33,151 nt of DNA, taken from NCBI GenBank assembly GCA_903895845.1, contig CAITVK010000116.1:1-33151 (forward strand). The letters run 5' to 3'. Position numbers and translations under genes: made by a program. Positions 2,052 through 13,745 of this stretch are shown in pieces. Every line of letters starts with the position of its first letter. Position 1 is the first letter of the stretch. This DNA is from an uncultured Chitinophagaceae bacterium (GTDB lineage: Bacteria; Bacteroidota; Bacteroidia; Chitinophagales; Chitinophagaceae). The notes beneath the pieces are model-generated. The model was given only the letters and a program-made list of their open reading frames with translations. It searched no databases and was not told the origin of the DNA.

Positions 2052-5000
2052 ATGAAAAGTAAATTTCTCCTAACCCTTCTCGCTGGTATTTTAAGTTTTA
2101 CAGCTGCAATGGCTGCTAATACAAACTACTATTACAATGGAACTGGTGATATAACCAATGTTGCCAGCTGGAATACCAATACGAGTGGTTCTGGAGGGGC
2201 TTCCCCAACTGATTTTGTTACTGCGGCCCAAACATTTAATATCAGAAATGCCAGTTCTGTCACGCTATTAGCTGGATGGACGGTTTCGGGAACTGGGTCG
2301 CTAATACAACTTGGAGACGGTACCAATGCCTGTACGTTCACAATCCCTTCAAATTTTGCTGTAACGGGAACGATTAATGTTTCTGCCAATGCAACTTTAT
2401 CTATTGCCAATGCTACCATCCCAACATTGGGTACATTAAGTACAGGGAGCACGGTTACTTTTTCGGGTGCAGTTGCTCAAACAGTGCCTTCCAAAACCTA
2501 TTCAAATTTAACTATTTCTAATTCTGGTTATGTTGCATCTGCGGTTGGAAGTGTTACTGTTAATGGGATTTTGACAATTAATAGTAACGCCACCTTGAAT
2601 ATGGTAACTTATCAACTATTAGGTTCTACTTTAACAACAGCCGGCAGTGCCTCTGGAATATTGGAAACACAATTTCCTACTAGTTCAGGAGCCATTCCTG
2701 CGACTACTACAAACTGGGCATTTACGGTAGAATTTAATAATACGGCAGCTTCTACAACACAAACCTTACCCAATATTGCTGGCGGAAACACGTTCGCTGG
2801 GTTGATTATTGCAAATACAGGGGGGCTAGTAAATTTATATGGTCCAATTACAGTAAATGGGATACTGACTATCAGTAGTGGTTGCACTTTGGGAGGAGGA
2901 ACTTATACTATTGGGGGGAGTTATACAACAAGTGGTACGGGTACACTAAATGTAGGATCTACTTCTGCAACCCCCATTGCTAATGCTACCTACACATTTG
3001 ATGTAAACTATACGAGTGCCAGTGCACAAACAATAGTTGCAGCCAATTATAACAACCTTATTTCAAGTGCTGCAGGAGGCAGAACATTGGCGAGCTCAGG
3101 AACTATTGGTATTGCAGGAACGTTTACAAAAGGAACCAATACCTATACAGCCACAGGTAGTACAATTGCATTTAATGGTACTGCAGCACAAACAATTCCT
3201 AATTTCTCTTATGTAGGTCTTGCAGTTACCAATACAACTGCTACTGTTTCTGCAGGTGCAGCATTCAGTGTTTCGGGTCTATTGAATATAGCATCAGGTG
3301 CTACGCTTGACATGGGTACTTATCAACTGACAGGGGCTTACACCACAAGTGGCACTGGCACATTAAAAACCTCCTGTACTACTAGTCCAGCTATTACGTC
3401 GGGCAGGGTTAACTCTTTTGCGGTTAATTATGCAGCATCAACTGGGGGGCAATTTTTTGGAGGCACCTACAATGGTGGTTTAACTTTTAGCAATACTAGT
3501 GGTGTCAATACCGCAGTAGCCAATACGCTGGTTACTGGTACTTTAGCTATAACCAATTCCGGAAGTACTGTAAATATGGTAACATATACATTGCAAGGAG
3601 CTATTACCCAAGCAACAACTGCTACAGGTACGGATTTGTCCACCAGTTCATATACGGTCAATTTCAGCTCTGCCGTAAATGCGAGTATTGTTGTTGGTAT
3701 GAGTGTTAGTGGCCCTAATATTCCCCTTGGAACAACAGTAGCAGGAATTAATACGAATTCGATAACAATTTCAAATTATCCTATCGCAAATGTCAGTAAT
3801 ACGGCTTTGACACTAACATTCGGGTTCTCTACAAGTGGTTCTGGTTTATTGTTAACACAGTATGCCTCTTCAACAGCAATTCCTCCAAGCTCTTATTCCT
3901 TTACGGTAGAATACAATAGCAGCTCCTCAAGCCAAACATTTCCCAATGGCATTTCTGGATTTAACAATTTGATTATTGCCAACACTGGGTATTTCACTGC
4001 CTTGTACGGAAATATAACCATTGGTGGAACACTAACCATCACAGATGGATCTATATTGAATGCAGGAACTTACGCTATTGGTGGCAGTTTTACTACTTCC
4101 AATAACAGTGGTTCTGGGACAGGCAAATTGATTACCGCCTGCACATCAAGTGCTACTCCGCTTGCTGCAGGCACAGTTTATAATTTTGAGGTAGACTATG
4201 GTTCTGGTGGAAATCAGACAATTGTTTCAGGAAACTATACTACTTTAAACACTAGTGGTTACACCACAAGTACCGCTTCATTGGGAACTACAAATCCTAT
4301 CGTTATCGCATTTGCTGCAGGGCCAATAGTAGTTGGTGAGACTGTAACAGGACCAAATATTCCTGCAAACACAACAGTAACGGCGGTATCTGGTACAACT
4401 ATTACCCTTTCCAATGCGCCAACTGCTGGGACTGGAGTTGCAATTGGTAGTATCACGTTTGGATCTATGGGTACACGCACCTTGGCATCTGGTACTGTCT
4501 CTGTTTCTACTTCATTTGTACCCGGAACAACATCGTCATATTCTGTTAACTCGGGTAATATCATCAGTTTGGGATATGCTGGAACGCTTCCTTTACTGGG
4601 ATCTAATAGTGCCAACTATGCAGGATTGACTATTGCTGCTGGTACTACAACTGCATCCAGCGCATTAACAGTTGGGGGCAATTTTACCATTAGTAGCGGT
4701 GCAACTTTTGTAGCTCCTGGTTCAGGTACGGCCTTTAATGTGGCTGGTAACTGGAGCAACAGTGGTACTTTCACAAATAATGGCGGTACTGTTACCTTTA
4801 CAGGAACGAGTCAAACAATAACAGGTTCAAACACTTTCAATAGCTTCACTAAATCTGTTGCTACTGCCGCCACACTAACTTTCCCTGCGGGTGCAACTCA
4901 AACGTTTGCTGGAACATTGACTTTAAATGGCGCTGCTGGTCAGTTGTTGACTATTGCATCTAGTACAGGTAGTTCAGCTGCAAATTTAAATTTAACCGGT

Positions 5001-8000
5001 TCAGCAGTTGTTTCCTATGTTACAGTGAGTTATAGTAATAATTCTGGCACAACAATTCTTGCCACAAATGGAACAGATGGAGGAAACAACACAGGTTGGA
5101 CTTTTACTGCGGGACCTGTATGGACAGGGGCTAACAGTGCAAATTGGAATGATGCAGCAAACTGGATACCAGCAAGTGTGCCACTTGCTACAGATGCGGT
5201 TACAATTACAAAAACGGGGACTAATAATTTGTCGATAGAAACTTCACCAACGGTAGCAAGTATCAGCATCAGTGCCGGTAATACGGTTACCTTACTCAAT
5301 GGACAAACCCTTACTTTGAATGGTAGCATGTCCAATGCGGGTACTTTTACGGGAAATGCGACCAGTACTTGTGTGTTTGCAGCGAGTGGAGGTGTTTCTG
5401 GTATAGGAACAACCAACTTTAATAACCTTACGATTAATTCGGGACAAACCCTTACCGGAGGAAACTTTGGCATTTCGGGATCCTTTACCAATAATGGTAC
5501 TTACACAGCTTCTGGTGGAACTATTACCTTTAATGGAACGGGTACACAGACAGTTCCGGGGCTAACATACGGTTCGCTATCCATTACAAATACGGTTGGA
5601 CCGGTAACTGCTGGAGGTAATATTTATGTTGCCAACAATATTAACATCAATTCAAATGCAACATTGGATATGAGTTCCTATCAGTTGACAGGGTATACTT
5701 TTACTCAAAATACTTTAGGGGCAGGATCTATTACAAATGGGAGTACTACAATAACACTTTCTGCTGCAAATGCAAATATTTCTGTTGGGCAACAAGTAGT
5801 TGGGTTCTCTATTCCAGCTGGAGCAACTGTTGCAGCCTACACGCCAGGGGCTACATCTTTTACCCTTTCTTCTTCCGCAACGGGTACTTCTACCGCAGCC
5901 AATACATTGGTATTTGGTTTTACAACCAGTGGAACAGGCACACTAAAAACTCAGAATACTACCGCGCCCGCAATTCAGTCTAGCAGAGCGTGGAGTTTTG
6001 CAGTAGTTTACAACAATGCTTCAGGAGGACAAACTGTATCTTCTTCTTCTTTTATGAATGGGTTTACGATCATGAATGGAGCCAACACTGCAACAGGAAG
6101 TATCTATGTTAATGGCACATTTGATATTCACAATGTAGGAAGCAGCCTGAGTATGGGAACAAATACCGTTACAGCGGGCACTTCGATGACTACGACAGGT
6201 AGTGGTACACTCTCAACTGGGGTACTAAATAGTTCTGGGGCTTTATCAGCTGGTCAGACCTGGAACTTTAATGTTACTTACAATGGTAATGGTACACAGA
6301 CACTTCCTCAAGGTACAAATACTTTCAATAACCTTACTATTACAAATAATAGTACATCAACTCTTTATGGCGGTTCTACTTATGCCATCAATGGTACACT
6401 TACCATTACTGGTGGAAGTACGCTTATTACAAGTAACTGTTCTATTACGGGTAACTTCCTGACAAGTGGAACAGGAAAATTGTTGGTAAACAACAATACA
6501 ACATCCACTCCTATGACTGCTGGATTAAGCTATAGTTTTGAAGTAGATTATAATGGAGCAGTAGCAGAAACAATAGTTGCGGGAAATTATTCTACATTAA
6601 ATGGCACGTCAGTCAGTACAACTACTACCGCATCTACCGGTACAACAAACCCAATTGTAGTTGCATCTGCAACTGGTTTAGCGGTTGGGCAGGTTGTAAC
6701 AGGAACTTACATTGCTGCTAATACTACAGTAACTGCAATATCCAGTACTTCAATTACTTTGTCAAATGCACCTACTGCTGCATCGGGTACTACAATTGGA
6801 ACGGTAACCTTTACTGGAGGCGGCAGTAGAACATTAGGCGCGGGTACGGTTGCCGTATCTACTTCATTTGTTCCTGGTACGACCAGTTCTTATACTGTAA
6901 ATTCTGGAAATATATTGAGCATCGGCTACACAACCACACTTCCTGCTACACTCGGAACAAATAATGTAAACTATGCTGGATTGACTGTGACAGCCGGTAC
7001 AGTAACAGCTCCTGCCAACCTAACCCTTCTTGGTTCATTCTCTATTAGTGGGGGAACTTTCACTGCTCCTTCAGGTAATTTCACCGTTGGGGGGGATTGG
7101 AATAATACAGGAGGAACATTTAATGCTAATAGTGGAACGGTAATACTTAACGGAGTAAGTCAGACTATTACAGGCTCAACAAACTTCAATAATTTGACAA
7201 AATCAGTTGCATCAGCTGATGTAATTACTCTTCCCTCAGGACAGACTCAAACATTTGCAGGTACTTTAACCCTAAATGGTGCTGCAAATAATCTGTTGAC
7301 AATTGTTTCTAGTTCCACTACTACACAAGCGAATATTAATCCTCAGGGTTCATATTCTATAAGTTATATAGCGGTGAGTGGTAATAATAATTTAAGTGCT
7401 TCTCCGCTAGTGCCTACAAATGCAACCAACAACGGAAACAATACAAATTGGACATTGCCTGCTGCAAGCTATGTGTGGACAGGGACCAATAGCACCAATT
7501 GGAATGATGCAGCCAACTGGAATCTAGGTGGTGTTCCAACAGCTACTGACGGTGTAACAATAACCAAAACGGGTAGTTATGATTTATCCATTGAAGTTTC
7601 TCCAACTGTTGCAAGCATTACTATTAGCTCCAGCAACAATGTTACATTGCAAAGTGGTAAAACCCTAACTGTAAATGGTAGCTTTATCAATTCTGGTACA
7701 TTCACTTCTACGCCAACTAGTACCATTGAATTTGGAGGTGCAACCACAATATCTGGTAACGGTACTACAACTTACAATAATATCATCATAGATAACGGTG
7801 CAACACTTGCCGGTGGTAGTTTTAGTGTTACTGGAAATTGGACTAATAGCGGATCTTTTATTGCAACAACTGGAACAGTTAATGTCAATGGCTCCTCAGC
7901 TCAGACGATACCTGCAGCAACATTCTATAATCTAGCTGTTAATAATGCGGCTGGTGTAACGCAATCAGGTAATGTTACTGTAAACAATACACTCACACTA

Positions 8001-11000
8001 ACTACGGGTACTTTGAATGTAAATGGTGATTCTTTAACAATTGCGACAGTGCCAACAGTAACGTCTGGCGCTATCAATGCAAGTGCTACAAATAGTGTCG
8101 TTGCTTTCAATAATCCATCTCTTATCACACTTCCTGCAGCACTCTTTGCCAGCAATGCTGTTTACAACTTTACTATTTTGAATGCTGGTGAAGTTTTGCT
8201 TGGAGGGGCTACTACCATCAGCAATACAATAAATCTTTATGGAGCGGGTGTTTTTAGTCTTGGGGGAAAAACATTGACCTTCAATGGCAATAACTTAATC
8301 AGAACAAGTGGTACAATGCTTGCAACTGGAGCAGGTTCTGAACTGTATCTGACCAGTGGTACGACTTTGATTCCATTGAATACAATTTCAACTATATATA
8401 AACTGACACTCAACGGGGGTAGTGTCGCGTTGACAAACTCATTGACGATAACTAACACACTTAATCTAACAAGTGGGACACTTTACTTGAATGGGTTGAA
8501 ACTTACCTTGGCAAATACAACCATTAATCCGGGAAGTGGCTTCATTAATACCACAACAGATATGTATGGAAATTATATTACAGGAACTTACTGTCAGGTA
8601 ATTGTTACGAATACTTCTGCCTTGTCGATCCCTAATGTATTTACAAATGGTGTTATAAGGTATCTGACAATTAATAACACAAGTACTGTCTCTTTTTCTG
8701 GGGCTGTCTCTATTGCGAATAATGGATTCCTCAATTTAACGACCGGAACATTAAGCGGTACAAATCTAACGCTTGGAACAGGTGCTACTATTATTCGTAC
8801 AGGTGGAACAATGAGTAGTGCGCCATCTTACACAAGCAATGTTAATGTTGAATATCTGGATCTCGCAACTGGTTCAATTACCACTGGTTATGAGTTGCCT
8901 TCTGGCTCTACTGCCTTAAAGAATCTGATTGTAGATGTGAATAATGCGCGTCCTTTAATCATTAATTCTACGGCCACAGTTAATGGCAACTTGTTCTTGT
9001 GGGTAGGCGGCATTACCAATTCAGGTAATTTGACGCTTGCAAATGGGGCAACTATAACAAGATCGGGCGGTGCATTTGATGTTACACCAAACTTTGCAGG
9101 TTCGGTTAACATAACTTACATTCAAGGCTATGGTACAACAGGAACGGAATTACCTACCTCCACTTCGACAGTAAATAATCTTACTGTAAGCGCTGGTTAT
9201 ATAACAACAGGCACTTCTGCTGTAACCCTCACATCCGGAGGTTCTGGATATACCACCGTTCCGAATGCAACAGTTGGAAATATATGGTCTTCAGGAACTG
9301 CTTATTCTGTTGGTCAGCAAGTTATCAATAATGGTAATCTCTACACTTGTATTGTTGCGGGTACCAGCAGCACCGCTTCGTATGGTCCTCTCGATTTTAG
9401 TACTACAATTACAGATGGCACTGCAACATGGCAGTTTGCTGGATTCCCTGCTTCTGTGACACCTACTGTTTCTCTTGGCGCAGTAACCGGTTTAAATGTT
9501 GGGTCTAAAGGAAATAATTATACTTCCACTCAGGCCATACAATTAGGTACCCAATGGAGTGCTTCCAGAACCAATTATCCAATTTCATATACTGCGGGTA
9601 GCTATGTGTACTATGGTTCAAACCTTTACAATGTTACAACTGCGGGATATAGTGGTAGCACAGCACCAACAGTTACCAGTGGAACATTTACTGCAACAGG
9701 AAGCTTTGGCGGAACACCAGCCGTATTCACTTACGTGGGGACTCCTGCTGCTGCAACTGCTGCTTTAACTGCAGAAAGTATTTATTTGGATAATTCTGTG
9801 ACAGTAAATGGGACTTTAAACCTCACTGTAGGGGACTTGGTACTGCAAGGATTTAATGTCGTTGCAAATAGTGTTAATGGAAATAGCTCTAATTATATTG
9901 TCACTAACAGTACTGGGACATTGACTATTAAAGGCGTGGGCAATTCCGCAACCTTATTCCCGATTGGTACTTCAACTTCGTATGCGCCTTTGACTATTAC
10001 CAATACTACGGGAACTTCAAATGTTACAACAGGCGTTCAATCTACTTTCTCTAACCAGCCAGGTGACCCTACTCAGGTGGTTAAACTGCAATGGAATGTT
10101 TTGGGAAGTACTGCGACTACTGCTACTATCAAATATCAATTTAATGCGAGTGATTTGCCTTCGGGTAATACTTTCCTTACAAATGCAACTTGTGAAGTTG
10201 GTAACTACCAATCTGGGTTCACTGTAAAAGCGTGCACAAATAGTGGAAGCAATGGTTCAGGTACTCCTTTTGGAACTGATCCTTACACGGTCTCTGCTAC
10301 AGGCTTTACAATCCCTTCTAGCGGTACAAACTACTATCTTGTTGGAAACACGGGCAACATCATTGTCCCTGCAACTACTTGGACTGGTGCTTTGTCAACC
10401 GATTGGACATTGGCGGGCAACTGGGACAATGGCTCTCCTGCTTCTAGTTCTGTAGTTACAATTGCAGCAACAAGCAAATCTCCTGTTATCAGTACAGCCC
10501 AATCTGTTAAGAGCCTGACTCTTGCTTCTGGAGCAATACTTACCAACAATAGTTCGCTCAGTATTGCTACATCCTTGTCATTCGGAAGTGCCACCGGAAC
10601 AATCAATGGCTCTGGTACAACCATTTTATCTGGCACTGCTGCACAAACTGTCAGCGGAAATGGTATTGTAGGCAACTTTACACTGAACAATAGCAATGGT
10701 GCAACTGTGACAGCTGGTGCTGGTAACAGTTTGGGTATCACTGGAGTGTTGAACTTGCAAAATGGCACATTGACCACCAATGGCAATGTTACTTTGAAGT
10801 CAACCAGTCTTGCTAATACAGGTACCCTCGCCTCAATAGATGGTGTCACAAACAAGGGCTCAATTAGTGGCAATGTAACCGTTGAGCGTTACATTCCTAA
10901 GGGTTTCCGTGCGTATCGCGATATTGCCCCTGAGGTTTATGGTGCGGGTACTATCTTCAAGAACTGGCAGTTGAATGGGGCAACTACCCCAGGTTATGGT

Positions 11001-12746
11001 ATCTTCATTACAGGGCCTACAGCTTATGCTGGTTCTTCCAATGCGGGTACAACTGATGCCAATGGTTTCGATAAGTCTGCTACCTCTGCGTACAACACAC
11101 AGGATTATACCTTTGTGAATGGCACCTGGAATCCATTTATTAATACCAGTGCAAACCTTGATGCCTTTACAGGTTACAGGTTATTGGTTCGTGGCGACAG
11201 GACTGCGAATATCTACACTAGCCCTGTTACCAATACACAATCTGGTTTGGCGATGTTCAATGCCACAACCTTGAGTGCGACTGGTCAGTTGGTTACAGGT
11301 ACAGTTACTTACAATACTATTGCAAATGGTGGTGTGACGAATACCGCCACAGGTGGTAATTCCGCAGTTGGCTTAAATGCAACTACCAACGGCTTCAGTC
11401 TGGTTGCCAATCCTTATGCTGCTCCGGTACAATGGGGTACAGGAACAGGAAGCAACAGCAGTACTGCAACCGTATATGGTGCGTCAGGTGGTATCAATGG
11501 TAGCTACTGGTATCTGGATCCAACCTCCGGTGCGACAGGTAAATACATTGCCTTCAATGCTTTGACAGGTGCTGCGACTGTTTCTGGCTTGGGTACTTAT
11601 TCGAATACAGGTACTGTACCAGTAGGTACAGGTTATATACAACCTGGTCAGGCGGTATTCGTACAAACAACAGGTGCTACTCCAACGGTAGTTTTCCAAG
11701 AAACCGCTAAGGCTACAGGTGCTACCAAGGCGTCTGTATTCGGTACAGCAGCCTTGAGTAAGATCTATATCAGCTTGTTGAAACAAACTACAACCGGATA
11801 CAGCAATGTTGATGGTGCTGCGGTAGCCTTCAGGTCAGACTTTTGCAACAAAGTGTATGGACCTCAAGATGCCATCAAGTTCAGCGGAGCAAATGATAAT
11901 ATTTATATCAGCGATAAAGGCAAGAATTTAAGTATTGATGGAAGATTGCCTGCGACTGCAAGTGACGCCATTGCGCTGAAGATTTCTAATCCTACTGCAA
12001 CAGCCTATCGCTTGAGTATTGATGCTTCTGCCTATGCCAATAACGGGTTCGAACCATTGTTGTATGATGCTTTCAAGAATACCGCCAAGGCATTGGGCAC
12101 AGGAACTACCACAGTAGATTTCACTGTTGATACAGCGAAGGCTGCATCATTCAGCAACCGATTCACTATCCTGTTTGCACCAAGTGCATTGCCGGTAAAT
12201 AGTATCGTTGCCAATGCAAGCCTGAGCAATAAGACAGCAACTATCACCTGGAACACAGTAGGTGAAAAGAATGTAGCTTCCTATGAAGTAGAGAAATCTA
12301 CCGATGCCAAGAACTTCACAGCAATCGGTCAGGTTACAGCTAAAAATACGGCAACTGCCAGTTACACTGCGACTGATAACAGCGTAACTGCAACTACATA
12401 CTACCGCATCAAGGCAATAAGTACAGCAGGCAACATTTCTTACAGCAACGTTGCTAAAGTGACTTATGACTTAAGACTTACGACTTATGCCTTGTATCCT
12501 AACCCACTAACAGGCAAGACCCTTAATGTGTCTTTGGATAATGTGGTAGCGGGTAAATACACAGTGAGCATCTACAATGCGTTGGGACAAAGGGTGATTA
12601 CACAAACAATCAGTCATACGGGTGGAAGTGCCACACACGCCATCAGCATCAATAGTGCATTGGCTGCGGGAGTCTACAATGTGAGCATCAGCGAAGCAAA
12701 CAGCAAGCAAGTGGTTCATCAAAGTAGCTTGATAGTTGAAAATTAG
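2052..12746 (+). CDS. Giant secreted T9SS repeat protein (adhesin-like)
   Basis: A 3564-residue Thr/Ser/Asn/Gly-rich exported protein. Signal peptide about 1-22. Residues from about 30 to 2950 are beta-helix-like repeats of the T-x-n-x-G-T-L-T-I type. Three WTG-n-WNDAANW-type module starts lie at W1024, W1809 and W2777. The first two are about 785 residues apart and begin closely similar sequence, marking a tandem super-repeat. Four copies of a 65-80 residue insert (core like IPAGTTV-x-ITLSN) sit near 517-593, 737-803, 1214-1293 and 1521-1587. Residues about 2405-2570 hold two aromatic modules like carbohydrate-binding or phage-tail modules. An Fn3-like domain spans about 3391-3473, and a type A T9SS sorting domain (YPNPLTGK onward) about 3482-3564. 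Likely exported by T9SS and surface-attached or released; ligand unknown. The frame is uninterrupted, and opposite-strand frames are codon-bias shadows. Start chosen for the clean signal peptide. Confidence 0.93.
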   Translation: MKSKFLLTLLAGILSFTAAMAANTNYYYNGTGDITNVASWNTNTSGSGGASPTDFVTAAQTFNIRNASSVTLLAGWTVSGTGSLIQLGDGTNACTFTIPSNFAVTGTINVSANATLSIANATIPTLGTLSTGSTVTFSGAVAQTVPSKTYSNLTISNSGYVASAVGSVTVNGILTINSNATLNMVTYQLLGSTLTTAGSASGILETQFPTSSGAIPATTTNWAFTVEFNNTAASTTQTLPNIAGGNTFAGLIIANTGGLVNLYGPITVNGILTISSGCTLGGGTYTIGGSYTTSGTGTLNVGSTSATPIANATYTFDVNYTSASAQTIVAANYNNLISSAAGGRTLASSGTIGIAGTFTKGTNTYTATGSTIAFNGTAAQTIPNFSYVGLAVTNTTATVSAGAAFSVSGLLNIASGATLDMGTYQLTGAYTTSGTGTLKTSCTTSPAITSGRVNSFAVNYAASTGGQFFGGTYNGGLTFSNTSGVNTAVANTLVTGTLAITNSGSTVNMVTYTLQGAITQATTATGTDLSTSSYTVNFSSAVNASIVVGMSVSGPNIPLGTTVAGINTNSITISNYPIANVSNTALTLTFGFSTSGSGLLLTQYASSTAIPPSSYSFTVEYNSSSSSQTFPNGISGFNNLIIANTGYFTALYGNITIGGTLTITDGSILNAGTYAIGGSFTTSNNSGSGTGKLITACTSSATPLAAGTVYNFEVDYGSGGNQTIVSGNYTTLNTSGYTTSTASLGTTNPIVIAFAAGPIVVGETVTGPNIPANTTVTAVSGTTITLSNAPTAGTGVAIGSITFGSMGTRTLASGTVSVSTSFVPGTTSSYSVNSGNIISLGYAGTLPLLGSNSANYAGLTIAAGTTTASSALTVGGNFTISSGATFVAPGSGTAFNVAGNWSNSGTFTNNGGTVTFTGTSQTITGSNTFNSFTKSVATAATLTFPAGATQTFAGTLTLNGAAGQLLTIASSTGSSAANLNLTGSAVVSYVTVSYSNNSGTTILATNGTDGGNNTGWTFTAGPVWTGANSANWNDAANWIPASVPLATDAVTITKTGTNNLSIETSPTVASISISAGNTVTLLNGQTLTLNGSMSNAGTFTGNATSTCVFAASGGVSGIGTTNFNNLTINSGQTLTGGNFGISGSFTNNGTYTASGGTITFNGTGTQTVPGLTYGSLSITNTVGPVTAGGNIYVANNININSNATLDMSSYQLTGYTFTQNTLGAGSITNGSTTITLSAANANISVGQQVVGFSIPAGATVAAYTPGATSFTLSSSATGTSTAANTLVFGFTTSGTGTLKTQNTTAPAIQSSRAWSFAVVYNNASGGQTVSSSSFMNGFTIMNGANTATGSIYVNGTFDIHNVGSSLSMGTNTVTAGTSMTTTGSGTLSTGVLNSSGALSAGQTWNFNVTYNGNGTQTLPQGTNTFNNLTITNNSTSTLYGGSTYAINGTLTITGGSTLITSNCSITGNFLTSGTGKLLVNNNTTSTPMTAGLSYSFEVDYNGAVAETIVAGNYSTLNGTSVSTTTTASTGTTNPIVVASATGLAVGQVVTGTYIAANTTVTAISSTSITLSNAPTAASGTTIGTVTFTGGGSRTLGAGTVAVSTSFVPGTTSSYTVNSGNILSIGYTTTLPATLGTNNVNYAGLTVTAGTVTAPANLTLLGSFSISGGTFTAPSGNFTVGGDWNNTGGTFNANSGTVILNGVSQTITGSTNFNNLTKSVASADVITLPSGQTQTFAGTLTLNGAANNLLTIVSSSTTTQANINPQGSYSISYIAVSGNNNLSASPLVPTNATNNGNNTNWTLPAASYVWTGTNSTNWNDAANWNLGGVPTATDGVTITKTGSYDLSIEVSPTVASITISSSNNVTLQSGKTLTVNGSFINSGTFTSTPTSTIEFGGATTISGNGTTTYNNIIIDNGATLAGGSFSVTGNWTNSGSFIATTGTVNVNGSSAQTIPAATFYNLAVNNAAGVTQSGNVTVNNTLTLTTGTLNVNGDSLTIATVPTVTSGAINASATNSVVAFNNPSLITLPAALFASNAVYNFTILNAGEVLLGGATTISNTINLYGAGVFSLGGKTLTFNGNNLIRTSGTMLATGAGSELYLTSGTTLIPLNTISTIYKLTLNGGSVALTNSLTITNTLNLTSGTLYLNGLKLTLANTTINPGSGFINTTTDMYGNYITGTYCQVIVTNTSALSIPNVFTNGVIRYLTINNTSTVSFSGAVSIANNGFLNLTTGTLSGTNLTLGTGATIIRTGGTMSSAPSYTSNVNVEYLDLATGSITTGYELPSGSTALKNLIVDVNNARPLIINSTATVNGNLFLWVGGITNSGNLTLANGATITRSGGAFDVTPNFAGSVNITYIQGYGTTGTELPTSTSTVNNLTVSAGYITTGTSAVTLTSGGSGYTTVPNATVGNIWSSGTAYSVGQQVINNGNLYTCIVAGTSSTASYGPLDFSTTITDGTATWQFAGFPASVTPTVSLGAVTGLNVGSKGNNYTSTQAIQLGTQWSASRTNYPISYTAGSYVYYGSNLYNVTTAGYSGSTAPTVTSGTFTATGSFGGTPAVFTYVGTPAAATAALTAESIYLDNSVTVNGTLNLTVGDLVLQGFNVVANSVNGNSSNYIVTNSTGTLTIKGVGNSATLFPIGTSTSYAPLTITNTTGTSNVTTGVQSTFSNQPGDPTQVVKLQWNVLGSTATTATIKYQFNASDLPSGNTFLTNATCEVGNYQSGFTVKACTNSGSNGSGTPFGTDPYTVSATGFTIPSSGTNYYLVGNTGNIIVPATTWTGALSTDWTLAGNWDNGSPASSSVVTIAATSKSPVISTAQSVKSLTLASGAILTNNSSLSIATSLSFGSATGTINGSGTTILSGTAAQTVSGNGIVGNFTLNNSNGATVTAGAGNSLGITGVLNLQNGTLTTNGNVTLKSTSLANTGTLASIDGVTNKGSISGNVTVERYIPKGFRAYRDIAPEVYGAGTIFKNWQLNGATTPGYGIFITGPTAYAGSSNAGTTDANGFDKSATSAYNTQDYTFVNGTWNPFINTSANLDAFTGYRLLVRGDRTANIYTSPVTNTQSGLAMFNATTLSATGQLVTGTVTYNTIANGGVTNTATGGNSAVGLNATTNGFSLVANPYAAPVQWGTGTGSNSSTATVYGASGGINGSYWYLDPTSGATGKYIAFNALTGAATVSGLGTYSNTGTVPVGTGYIQPGQAVFVQTTGATPTVVFQETAKATGATKASVFGTAALSKIYISLLKQTTTGYSNVDGAAVAFRSDFCNKVYGPQDAIKFSGANDNIYISDKGKNLSIDGRLPATASDAIALKISNPTATAYRLSIDASAYANNGFEPLLYDAFKNTAKALGTGTTTVDFTVDTAKAASFSNRFTILFAPSALPVNSIVANASLSNKTATITWNTVGEKNVASYEVEKSTDAKNFTAIGQVTAKNTATASYTATDNSVTATTYYRIKAISTAGNISYSNVAKVTYDLRLTTYALYPNPLTGKTLNVSLDNVVAGKYTVSIYNALGQRVITQTISHTGGSATHAISINSALAAGVYNVSISEANSKQVVHQSSLIVEN

Positions 12747-12850
12747 TAATTGACAATTGAAATGATTATCGGTGTTGATGGATATATGATAACGGTATCC
12801 TTGGTTTTTAGATGAATTTTAGAAGTTATTTGAGTGATTGGAAGGACGAG

Positions 12851-13340
12851 GAAAAAGATTTGCGGCAACACGAGTTCTTGTGTCAGGGCGAATTCGAAGA
12901 TTTGCTGTGTCACTAGTTCTCGTGCCAGGGCAAATTCGAAGATTTTCTGTAACACGAGTTCTCGTGCTAGGGCAAATTCGAAGACTTGCTGTGTCACGAG
13001 TTCTTGTGCTAGGGCAAATTCGAAGATTTGCTGTAACACGAGTTCTTGTGTCAGGGCAAATTCGAAGATTTGCTGTGTCACGAGTTCTAGTGTCAGGGCA
13101 AATACAAAAATTTGCTGTGTCGGTCATCTAACTGACTACATGAATTTGAAGATTCGCTGTATCGGTCATCTAACCGACTACATAAATTTAAAGATTCATA
13201 CTGTCGGTCATCTAACCGACAGTATGAATTCGAAGATTCGCTGTATCGGTCATCTAACTGACTACATTAATTCGAAGATTTGCTGTGTCAGTCTTCTAAC
13301 TGACTACATGAATTCGAAGATTTACTGTGTCGGGCGCATC
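12851..13340. repeat. 42-bp phase-locked tandem array of two hairpin types
   Basis: Eleven units start exactly every 42 bp at 12869, 12911, 12953, 12995, 13037, 13079, 13121, 13163, 13205, 13247 and 13289, with degenerate edges before and after. All units share a half resembling aattcgaagatttgctgt. The other half is of two kinds. Units 1-6 carry CACGAGTTCTCGTG-like hairpins followed by a yAGGGcaa segment. Units 7-11 carry TCGGT-CATCTA-ACCGA-like hairpins followed by a ctacat segment. The array begins about 105 bp after the stop of the giant gene and lies before the small secreted protein. Because 42 is divisible by 3, several frames stay open across it; these are not credible genes. Confidence 0.92.
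13194..13229 (+). repeat. Longest hairpin of the 42-bp array
   Basis: Positions 13194-13208 and 13215-13229 are perfect 15-bp complementary arms around the loop CATCTA. It is the most stable-looking unit and the only type B unit in which the flanking segment also pairs without a bulge. Confidence 0.8.
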
Positions 13341-13496
13341 GGTATTGGTACAAATACATTTCGGGGTTGGGCAATGGGGCTTTCAATCAATAAAAAATAG
13401 ATTCATCCATCAATAAAGAATAAAGAAAGGAATTGCTTTTGGATGAATAACAGTGGTGAGTCAATCAATCAATAAACACTTTTAATACAAAATAGT

Positions 13497-13745
13497 ATGC
13501 AACAAACAGTTAAGGCACTCCGCACGTTTGGTTTTATCCTTCTGGTAAGTATTTGTGTAACAACCATCTCCAAGGCGCAGTCTCCGGCAGATGATCCGGG
13601 CATTGGTGGTCCAGGTAGTCCCAGTGAAGGCGTTGGTGGCGATGGCGGGCCTGTGGTTCCCTTTGATGGTGGCATGAGTCTGATGCTAGCTGCGAGTGGT
13701 ATTGGCTATGCGGCAAAGAGGATGAAAGGCACATATAGTAAATAA
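13497..13745 (+). CDS. Small secreted protein with PID-CTERM-like tail
   Basis: An 82-residue protein. The N-terminus is a signal peptide (hydrophobic stretch about 11-24, likely cleavage after SKA near residue 27). The middle (about 28-52) is rich in Gly and Pro with acidic residues. The tail is a conserved-looking VPFDGGMSLMLAASGIGYAA segment followed by basic residues (KRMK). This order of Pro/Asp-Gly-Gly, short hydrophobic helix and basic end is like the PID-CTERM putative sorting signal of Bacteroidota. Assignment to that family is from memory of the pattern and is not certain. It lies between the giant T9SS protein and the polysaccharide cluster, with its own 160-bp upstream gap. Function unknown, probably envelope-associated. 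Confidence 0.75.
   Translation: MQQTVKALRTFGFILLVSICVTTISKAQSPADDPGIGGPGSPSEGVGGDGGPVVPFDGGMSLMLAASGIGYAAKRMKGTYSK

Follow-up and report, generated by a model that had tools for sequence, protein, structure and literature searches.

The window analysed here, a stretch of 33,151 nucleotides from an uncultured Chitinophagaceae bacterium whose genome we designate G000 (its contigs carry C-numbers, the window locus being C116), encodes on its plus strand a surface protein of 3564 aa (2052..12746) with a T9SS C-terminal sorting domain (Por_Secre_tail). About 100 bp past the stop codon of this gene (12746), and as a sequence-only reading had described when it placed the element behind a 10.7-kb surface-protein gene, begins a tandem array of 42-bp units (12849..13352, plus strand). 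The first same-strand gene downstream of the array encodes a small PID-CTERM-like protein of 82 aa (13497..13745), scored at 23.1 bits, below the 26-bit cut-off. A weak terminator-like hairpin with a T-rich tail (12780..12809, plus strand) lies between surface gene and array; it is absent from our terminator scan, which had a loop limit of 8. Upstream of the surface gene, short palindromes (CGTATGAGCNGCTCATACG-like) cluster at 1222-1456, partly 21 bp apart, and are perhaps a decayed array with a period that is a multiple of 21 bp (a 21n array).

The units begin every 42 bp throughout, from 12849 to 13311, with zero indels, just as the sequence-only reading had observed. Its count of six A and five B units also stands, and a twelfth unit has to be added to its eleven, which gives the array its full extent. 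TRF reports the same DNA as two separate 42-bp rows (12855-13121, score 373; 13110-13333, score 294). Block A (12849..13100, plus strand, 6 units) carries the inner palindrome CACGAG/CTCGTG, and the left edge of its first unit is degenerate. Block B (13101..13310, plus strand, 5 units) carries GTCGGT/ACCGAC, and its first unit (AATACAAAAATTTGC), compared by eye with the ends of other arrays, resembles an array end fused to an array start. The terminal unit (13311..13352, plus strand) is a twelfth copy of the shared left half with a right half that is neither A nor B; its end, TTGGTACA, is identical in an array on contig C96 and partially present in one on C121.

The A and B consensuses are identical in 17 of 18 left columns and in 5 of 24 right columns, which bears out the description of a shared half joined to a switched one. 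The further claim, that a constant half is attached to a separate hairpin half, is not supported: folded singly, most units form one imperfect hairpin covering nearly all of the unit (in A units, the outer arms ATTTGC...GCAAAT together with the inner palindrome), and the shared half is therefore the linker plus the left arm and no separate module. The layout of a unit is an imperfect palindrome of ~34 bp and a linker of 8 bp, and the 42-bp repeat corresponds to four turns of B-DNA. One B unit contains an uninterrupted stem of 16 pairs (13194..13229, no strand assigned) in which both arms deviate from the neighboring B units and yet pair with each other.

A conserved protein-coding repeat, which the sequence-only reading had itself named as the finding that would count against it, was tested for, and no coding signal was seen. 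Differences are spread evenly over the codon positions (249:291:286) with no concentration at the third, the most open frame (frame 0) has a synonymous-to-nonsynonymous count of 34/151, one unit of the C96 array carries an in-frame stop (nearly all units are otherwise open in that frame), and related arrays with a 41-bp period change frame with every unit.

Nor is the array unique. Contig C96 of the same genome bears a near-copy (7 A and 5 B units) behind a second surface-protein gene, and C121 bears an array of A units only. Inner palindrome A is thus found at three array loci of G000 and inner palindrome B at two; outside the window, the B type was found on C96 alone, besides one single match with 2 mismatches on C62. 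The window locus and C96 are identical at 942 of 1000 positions in the upstream flank and at 449 of 504 in the array. Between locus L021 (7851-17177) and the window (2052-12746), the surface genes, arrays, and small downstream genes resemble a segmental duplication that is best kept near its 3' end. The earlier judgment that simple satellite expansion does not suffice to describe the array is upheld by the recurrence of the A/B switch in C96 and by a second composite array, on C14 of genome G001 (another species), which also switches midway.

Beyond G000, two-unit models searched across 13 genomes of the genus matched 7, with arrays in six; the G006 match was not an array. These arrays have 42-bp units, mostly with the outer arms TTTGC...GCAAA and with varied inner palindromes. 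A strict-filter search gave one weak match each (E 0.003-0.01) in seven of nine matching genomes, and G006, the one inspected, held no array; a scan of genome contigs returned three single matches, none inside an array. In G000, G010, G009, and G007, the array is flanked by a T9SS gene on one side and a small PID-CTERM-like gene on the other, despite unlike inner palindromes (the small genes that follow the arrays of G010 C99, G009 C87, and G007 C138 were judged similar by eye). The array of G007 C69 has exactly one whole unit fewer than that of G009 C175 (four against five), and the flank downstream is identical at 138 of 138 positions. These comparisons of sequence show the position of the array to be kept while the sequence of the array turns over.

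A terminator-like hairpin precedes the array at comparable loci as well. It is strong in G009 C87 (-34.3 kcal/mol), G007 C138 (-32.1 kcal/mol), and G007 C79 (-30.6 kcal/mol), weaker in G010 C190 (-20.5 kcal/mol), and weak in the window. Because such a hairpin comes before the array, we assign the array more probably to the upstream region of the PID-CTERM-like gene than to the 3' untranslated region (3' UTR) of the surface gene.

The period itself proved to be a property of the genome. We sampled 20 stretches of G000 (393 kb), picked by coordinate away from the arrays then known and on contigs met through earlier matches. Autocorrelation detected 27 tandem arrays in this sample, and 26 of them have a period that deviates by at most 1 bp from a multiple of 21 bp, a length of two turns of B-DNA; repeats of 7 and 14 bp are present as well. 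Twenty-five arrays were taken from TRF rows, with the exclusion of rows of about two copies, 7- and 14-bp arrays, and periods of 22, 31, and 60. None of the 25 lies mostly within a called open reading frame (ORF) once array-overlapping ORFs shorter than 900 bp are set aside; when these are retained, an overlap with at least one ORF of 80 aa or more is seen for 15 of 26 arrays, but such ORFs, here as in the window, are in our view spurious. Palindromic symmetry of the unit consensuses exceeds that of shuffled sequence (combined p 2e-12); taken singly, 11 of the 25 fall below 0.05 and 14 do not. Where both neighboring genes could be assigned (21 arrays), the genes are in tandem at 14, divergent at 6, and convergent at 1. 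The window array accordingly belongs to a class of arrays, helix-phased and often palindromic, that extends across the genome.

Just downstream of many arrays of the genus lies a gene for a family of ~320 aa, which we call gene X. Genomes with gene X yielded 47 21n arrays in 1015 kb (26 of them from the 393 kb of G000), against 1 in 294 kb of genomes in which no gene X was detected, a contrast confounded by relatedness, with genomes other than G000 sampled unevenly, at 1-60 kb each. Genome G012 has mostly non-21n periods, and G009 has two arrays with a 28-bp period. At loci L226 and L227 of G012, a member of the genus, many tandem arrays have periods of 28, 35, 40, 48, and 123, some of them adjoining N runs. 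A 21-bp palindrome, GACCTAC-TATTTTG-GTAGGTC, is repeated about 17 times at L275 (10947-11314) of G351, from another family of the order. Since the G000 sample showed the period to be genome-wide, the link with gene X is one of enrichment and not of exclusivity.

We collected 40 distinct homologs of gene X from at least about a hundred matches, 38 of them with usable upstream DNA (L148 and L175 have none), and searched the 800 bp upstream for periods of 25-80, an array being counted when it scored above 30 shuffles. The best period is 42 in 26 loci and 41 in 9, so that 35 of the 38 have an array. Nine loci had been found through their arrays, and all nine have one; with these excluded, there remain 29 homologs that homology searching alone had yielded, and 26 of these carry a significant 41/42-bp array upstream (17 of 42 bp and 9 of 41 bp), five of the 26 being barely over threshold (L161, L159, L185, L088, and L163). 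L162, L167, and L169 (period 65) have no significant 41/42-bp array. In a background drawn from G000 only, 21 of 159 ORFs have an upstream array at any period, 13 of those at 41/42 bp (Fisher p 6e-16); another control (12/61) was discarded, its loci having been chosen for arrays. In the genus, many of the arrays at gene X stop some 40-50 nt ahead of the start codon, a few gene-X arrays from other genera have more variable units, and outside the order four loci have 41/42- or 21-bp arrays near gene X, two of them downstream of it. On G007 C11 (L087 8629-8841), a gene X shortened to 70 aa stands behind a six-unit array.

Gene X is present in 27 of 246 relatives, with up to at least nine matches per genome, and in 3 of 395 genomes of a phylum-wide sample, namely, G000 and two others. 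None of 37 members matches any Pfam model (E <= 0.01); among three members scanned, no PHROGs family was found and NCBIfam gave one match, below its cut-off; and a sequence search of the PDB gave no match better than E 0.043. A PADLOC match to Cas7d in 2 of 37 members (best E 0.0029) is taken as noise. An AlphaFold model built from 37 sequences (pLDDT 87.9, pTM 0.52), where an earlier one from 10 close sequences had been poor (pLDDT 59.4), predicts two helices of 59 residues each and a jelly-roll-like end. Fold searches of PDB and viral libraries gave, among the matches listed, query TM scores of at most 0.26 and many jelly rolls, and pointed to no function. For the helical part, no DNA-binding domain is named among the best 50 matches per library, which are mostly jelly-roll-like partials. 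The median pI of the family is 7.1.

Some arrays that stand apart from gene X share a unit with one that adjoins it. The window array has no adjoining gene X, and its A consensus is identical at 34 of 42 positions to the gene-X array of C121; no B-type array was found beside any gene X in G000. A 41-bp array near 139 kb of C53 (L204 9263-9638), in whose vicinity no gene X was detected, has a unit identical at 41 of 41 positions to that of the C21 gene-X array, and an array at a contig end of G390 (L230 1-198) has a unit identical at 42 of 42 positions to a gene-X array (L181) of that contig at a distance of 184 kb. The second block of the composite array on G001 C14 is 38/42 identical to a gene-X array of G001. 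In the sampled stretches of G000, our profile detects no gene X, and of 16 arrays there in 41/42-bp register compared with seven G000 gene-X arrays, 15 match none beyond chance (at most 22/42).

The pattern of change within units speaks to the level at which such arrays might act. In a cross-validated count over 37 array groups, dyad-symmetric columns changed in 458 of 4620 cells (9.9%) and all other columns in 970 of 4436 (21.9%), a ratio of 0.45; with axes placed at random (200 runs), the ratio is 0.965 +/- 0.089 and never falls below 0.76. Selection on an RNA hairpin should favor G:U pairs and compensation. Deviations from pairing in the same 37 groups include 108 G:U and 93 A:C (p = 0.32), which amounts to no RNA-strand bias. 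Of the double changes, 10 keep pairing and 15 do not, where by our own estimate 8.3 are expected by chance, and compensatory double changes are thus not in excess. As judged from these sequence comparisons, the conservation of dyad columns fits the half-sites of a dimeric DNA-binding protein and favors a function in DNA over one in RNA, because those columns are conserved with neither G:U bias nor compensation and the units are spaced by whole helical turns.

We tentatively propose, at a probability of roughly 0.4, that the window array is a cis-acting DNA element, a series of phased dyad sites upstream of the PID-CTERM gene that a protein would bind. The dyad-symmetric sites are set exactly four turns of B-DNA (42 bp) apart, and a dimeric or polymerizing DNA-binding protein, which could be either gene X or some nucleoid protein, would fill the units side by side along one face of the helix. 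Its occupancy would set expression or local DNA topology, and composite A/B arrays would combine sites for two such proteins. We favor this proposal because of the period rule that holds for 26 of 27 arrays, the conservation of dyad columns without RNA-strand bias, the kept position, the gain or loss of a whole unit, the association with gene X, and the units that arrays apart from gene X can share with gene-X arrays. Against it weigh the median pI of gene X, the matches that name no DNA-binding domain for its helical part, the absence of gene X beside the window array and from the sampled stretches, the 15 of 16 sampled arrays unlike any of the seven gene-X arrays, the 14 of 25 sampled arrays that are not singly significant as palindromes, and the other periods of G012 and G009. 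Concerted turnover, moreover, could keep units alike without function.

The leading rival is a neutral satellite, which we consider somewhat unlikely: palindrome-prone intergenic DNA would expand and contract by slippage or unequal exchange and do nothing, its 21-bp quantization arising from a duplication step that helical phase (or a 7-bp unit) restricts and its palindromes from templated quasi-palindrome correction. It would account well for sequences private to most arrays, for the unit gain and loss observed, for pairing-preserving double changes that stay near chance, and for the 7- and 14-bp repeats. It accounts poorly for the retention of an array at corresponding loci of four species, for the conserved dyad columns, and for the association with gene X. 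A two-part system, in which the widespread gene-X family would make, maintain, or read 21n palindromic arrays in intergenic DNA, is a further reading that we consider unlikely; its paralogs would have their own arrays beside their genes and could have target arrays of the same unit elsewhere, and composite A/B arrays would combine sites for two paralogs.

An RNA-level element, that is, a multihairpin 5' leader of the downstream gene acting as an attenuator, a stability element, or a protein-binding RNA, is less probable again. Most units do fold as hairpins, many gene-X arrays of the genus stop shortly ahead of the start codon, and a first, cruder count, in which unit-border pairs were skipped, gave 76 G:U against 54 A:C. 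That bias vanished with more arrays and linear pairing, however, and the want of excess compensation, a helical quantization with no obvious RNA reason, and the 6 of 21 sampled arrays between divergent genes all argue against a leader; no Rfam family reaches its gathering score in the window. We give very little weight to the idea that the array is the RNA partner of a gene-X ribonucleoprotein, with distant arrays as decoys or leftovers. The order of array then gene with private repeats (the 35 of 38 usable loci) recalls type III toxin-antitoxin loci, and the stem-loop units of TIGR arrays are likewise variable yet palindromic (PMC12045711). Set against this are the lack of a Nop match in G000, the empty Pfam and PHROGs searches of gene X with their single sub-threshold NCBIfam match, and genus arrays with neither variable spacers nor strand bias. 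That the array terminates transcription of the surface gene or forms part of its 3' UTR, the latter an idea of the sequence-only reading, is hardly credible: it does begin close behind the stop codon, and a perfect-stem unit does receive a terminator score for the minus strand, but comparable loci have their terminator-like hairpins ahead of the array, just one of the 21 sampled arrays stands between convergent genes where the background has 7 such gaps in 95 (no enrichment), and a position between divergent genes, as at 6 of 21, does not suit a 3' UTR.

Tandem repeats between bacterial genes tend to be regarded as noise from slippage or used as genotyping markers. A single period rule across the sampled tenth of a genome, followed by sequences that differ from locus to locus, suggests that DNA geometry is constrained, whether in the origin of the arrays or in what binds them, and this constraint comes with a candidate protein family that is open to test. 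If the DNA-element proposal is right, it would open a way into the question of how repeated regulatory DNA is built in some bacteria, and surface-protein loci could be linked to their possible regulators through matching repeat units.

Searches of an open-access library showed no description of 21n palindromic arrays, and the array lacks tested features of several established systems (REP/BIME, CRISPR, TIGR-Tas, type III toxin-antitoxin, and coding repeats). CRISPR loci are regular tandem arrays with palindromic repeat parts and unique spacers; here there are no spacers, and the entire 42-bp unit repeats. In type III toxin-antitoxin systems (ToxIN), tandem repeats private to each locus lie directly upstream of one gene. 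Gene-X loci share this arrangement of locus-private repeats immediately 5' of a single gene, but gene X is about 320 aa long and belongs to no Pfam family, and no such gene stands close to the sampled arrays. The STRR and LTRR of cyanobacteria are likewise intergenic tandem repeats dispersed over the genome, 7-bp-based or tens of bp long; we know of no description of them that includes strict 21n periods, palindromic units, or a linked gene family.

TIGR arrays consist of tandem stem-loop units that are variable yet palindromic, with the first and last repeats truncated and a gene adjoining (PMC12045711), and the arrays described here share each of these traits. They differ from TIGR-Tas in that, within an array of the genus, the units resemble one another over their whole length, with no two variable spacers and no RNA-strand bias, and the Nop domain (PF01798) has 0 matches in G000 against 4 of 14 control genomes, in a search that a very divergent Nop could escape. 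The REP/BIME/REPIN elements are palindromic intergenic units that are numerous per genome and also clustered, as are ours, and their proposed roles include supercoiling, termination, and mRNA stability (PMC3733652; see also PMC3116915). Unlike them, the arrays reported here are mostly private in sequence to each locus and are fixed at 21n bp. The tag motifs are not general either (of the 37 array consensuses, 13 contain GTAG/CTAC anywhere in the unit and 3 contain CGTC/GACG), nor is one sequence family shared by many loci: in G000, inner palindrome A was found at three array loci and B at two, and all but one of the 16 sampled arrays match none of the seven gene-X arrays compared. Y1_Tnp (RAYT) has 2 matches in G000, and TRF sees no 21n array in the surrounding 3-kb loci. 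What we observed agrees with an array of phased DNA sites, both whole-turn spacing and conserved dyad half-sites being present, and the window array may work in the manner of a BIME or of a phased operator array.
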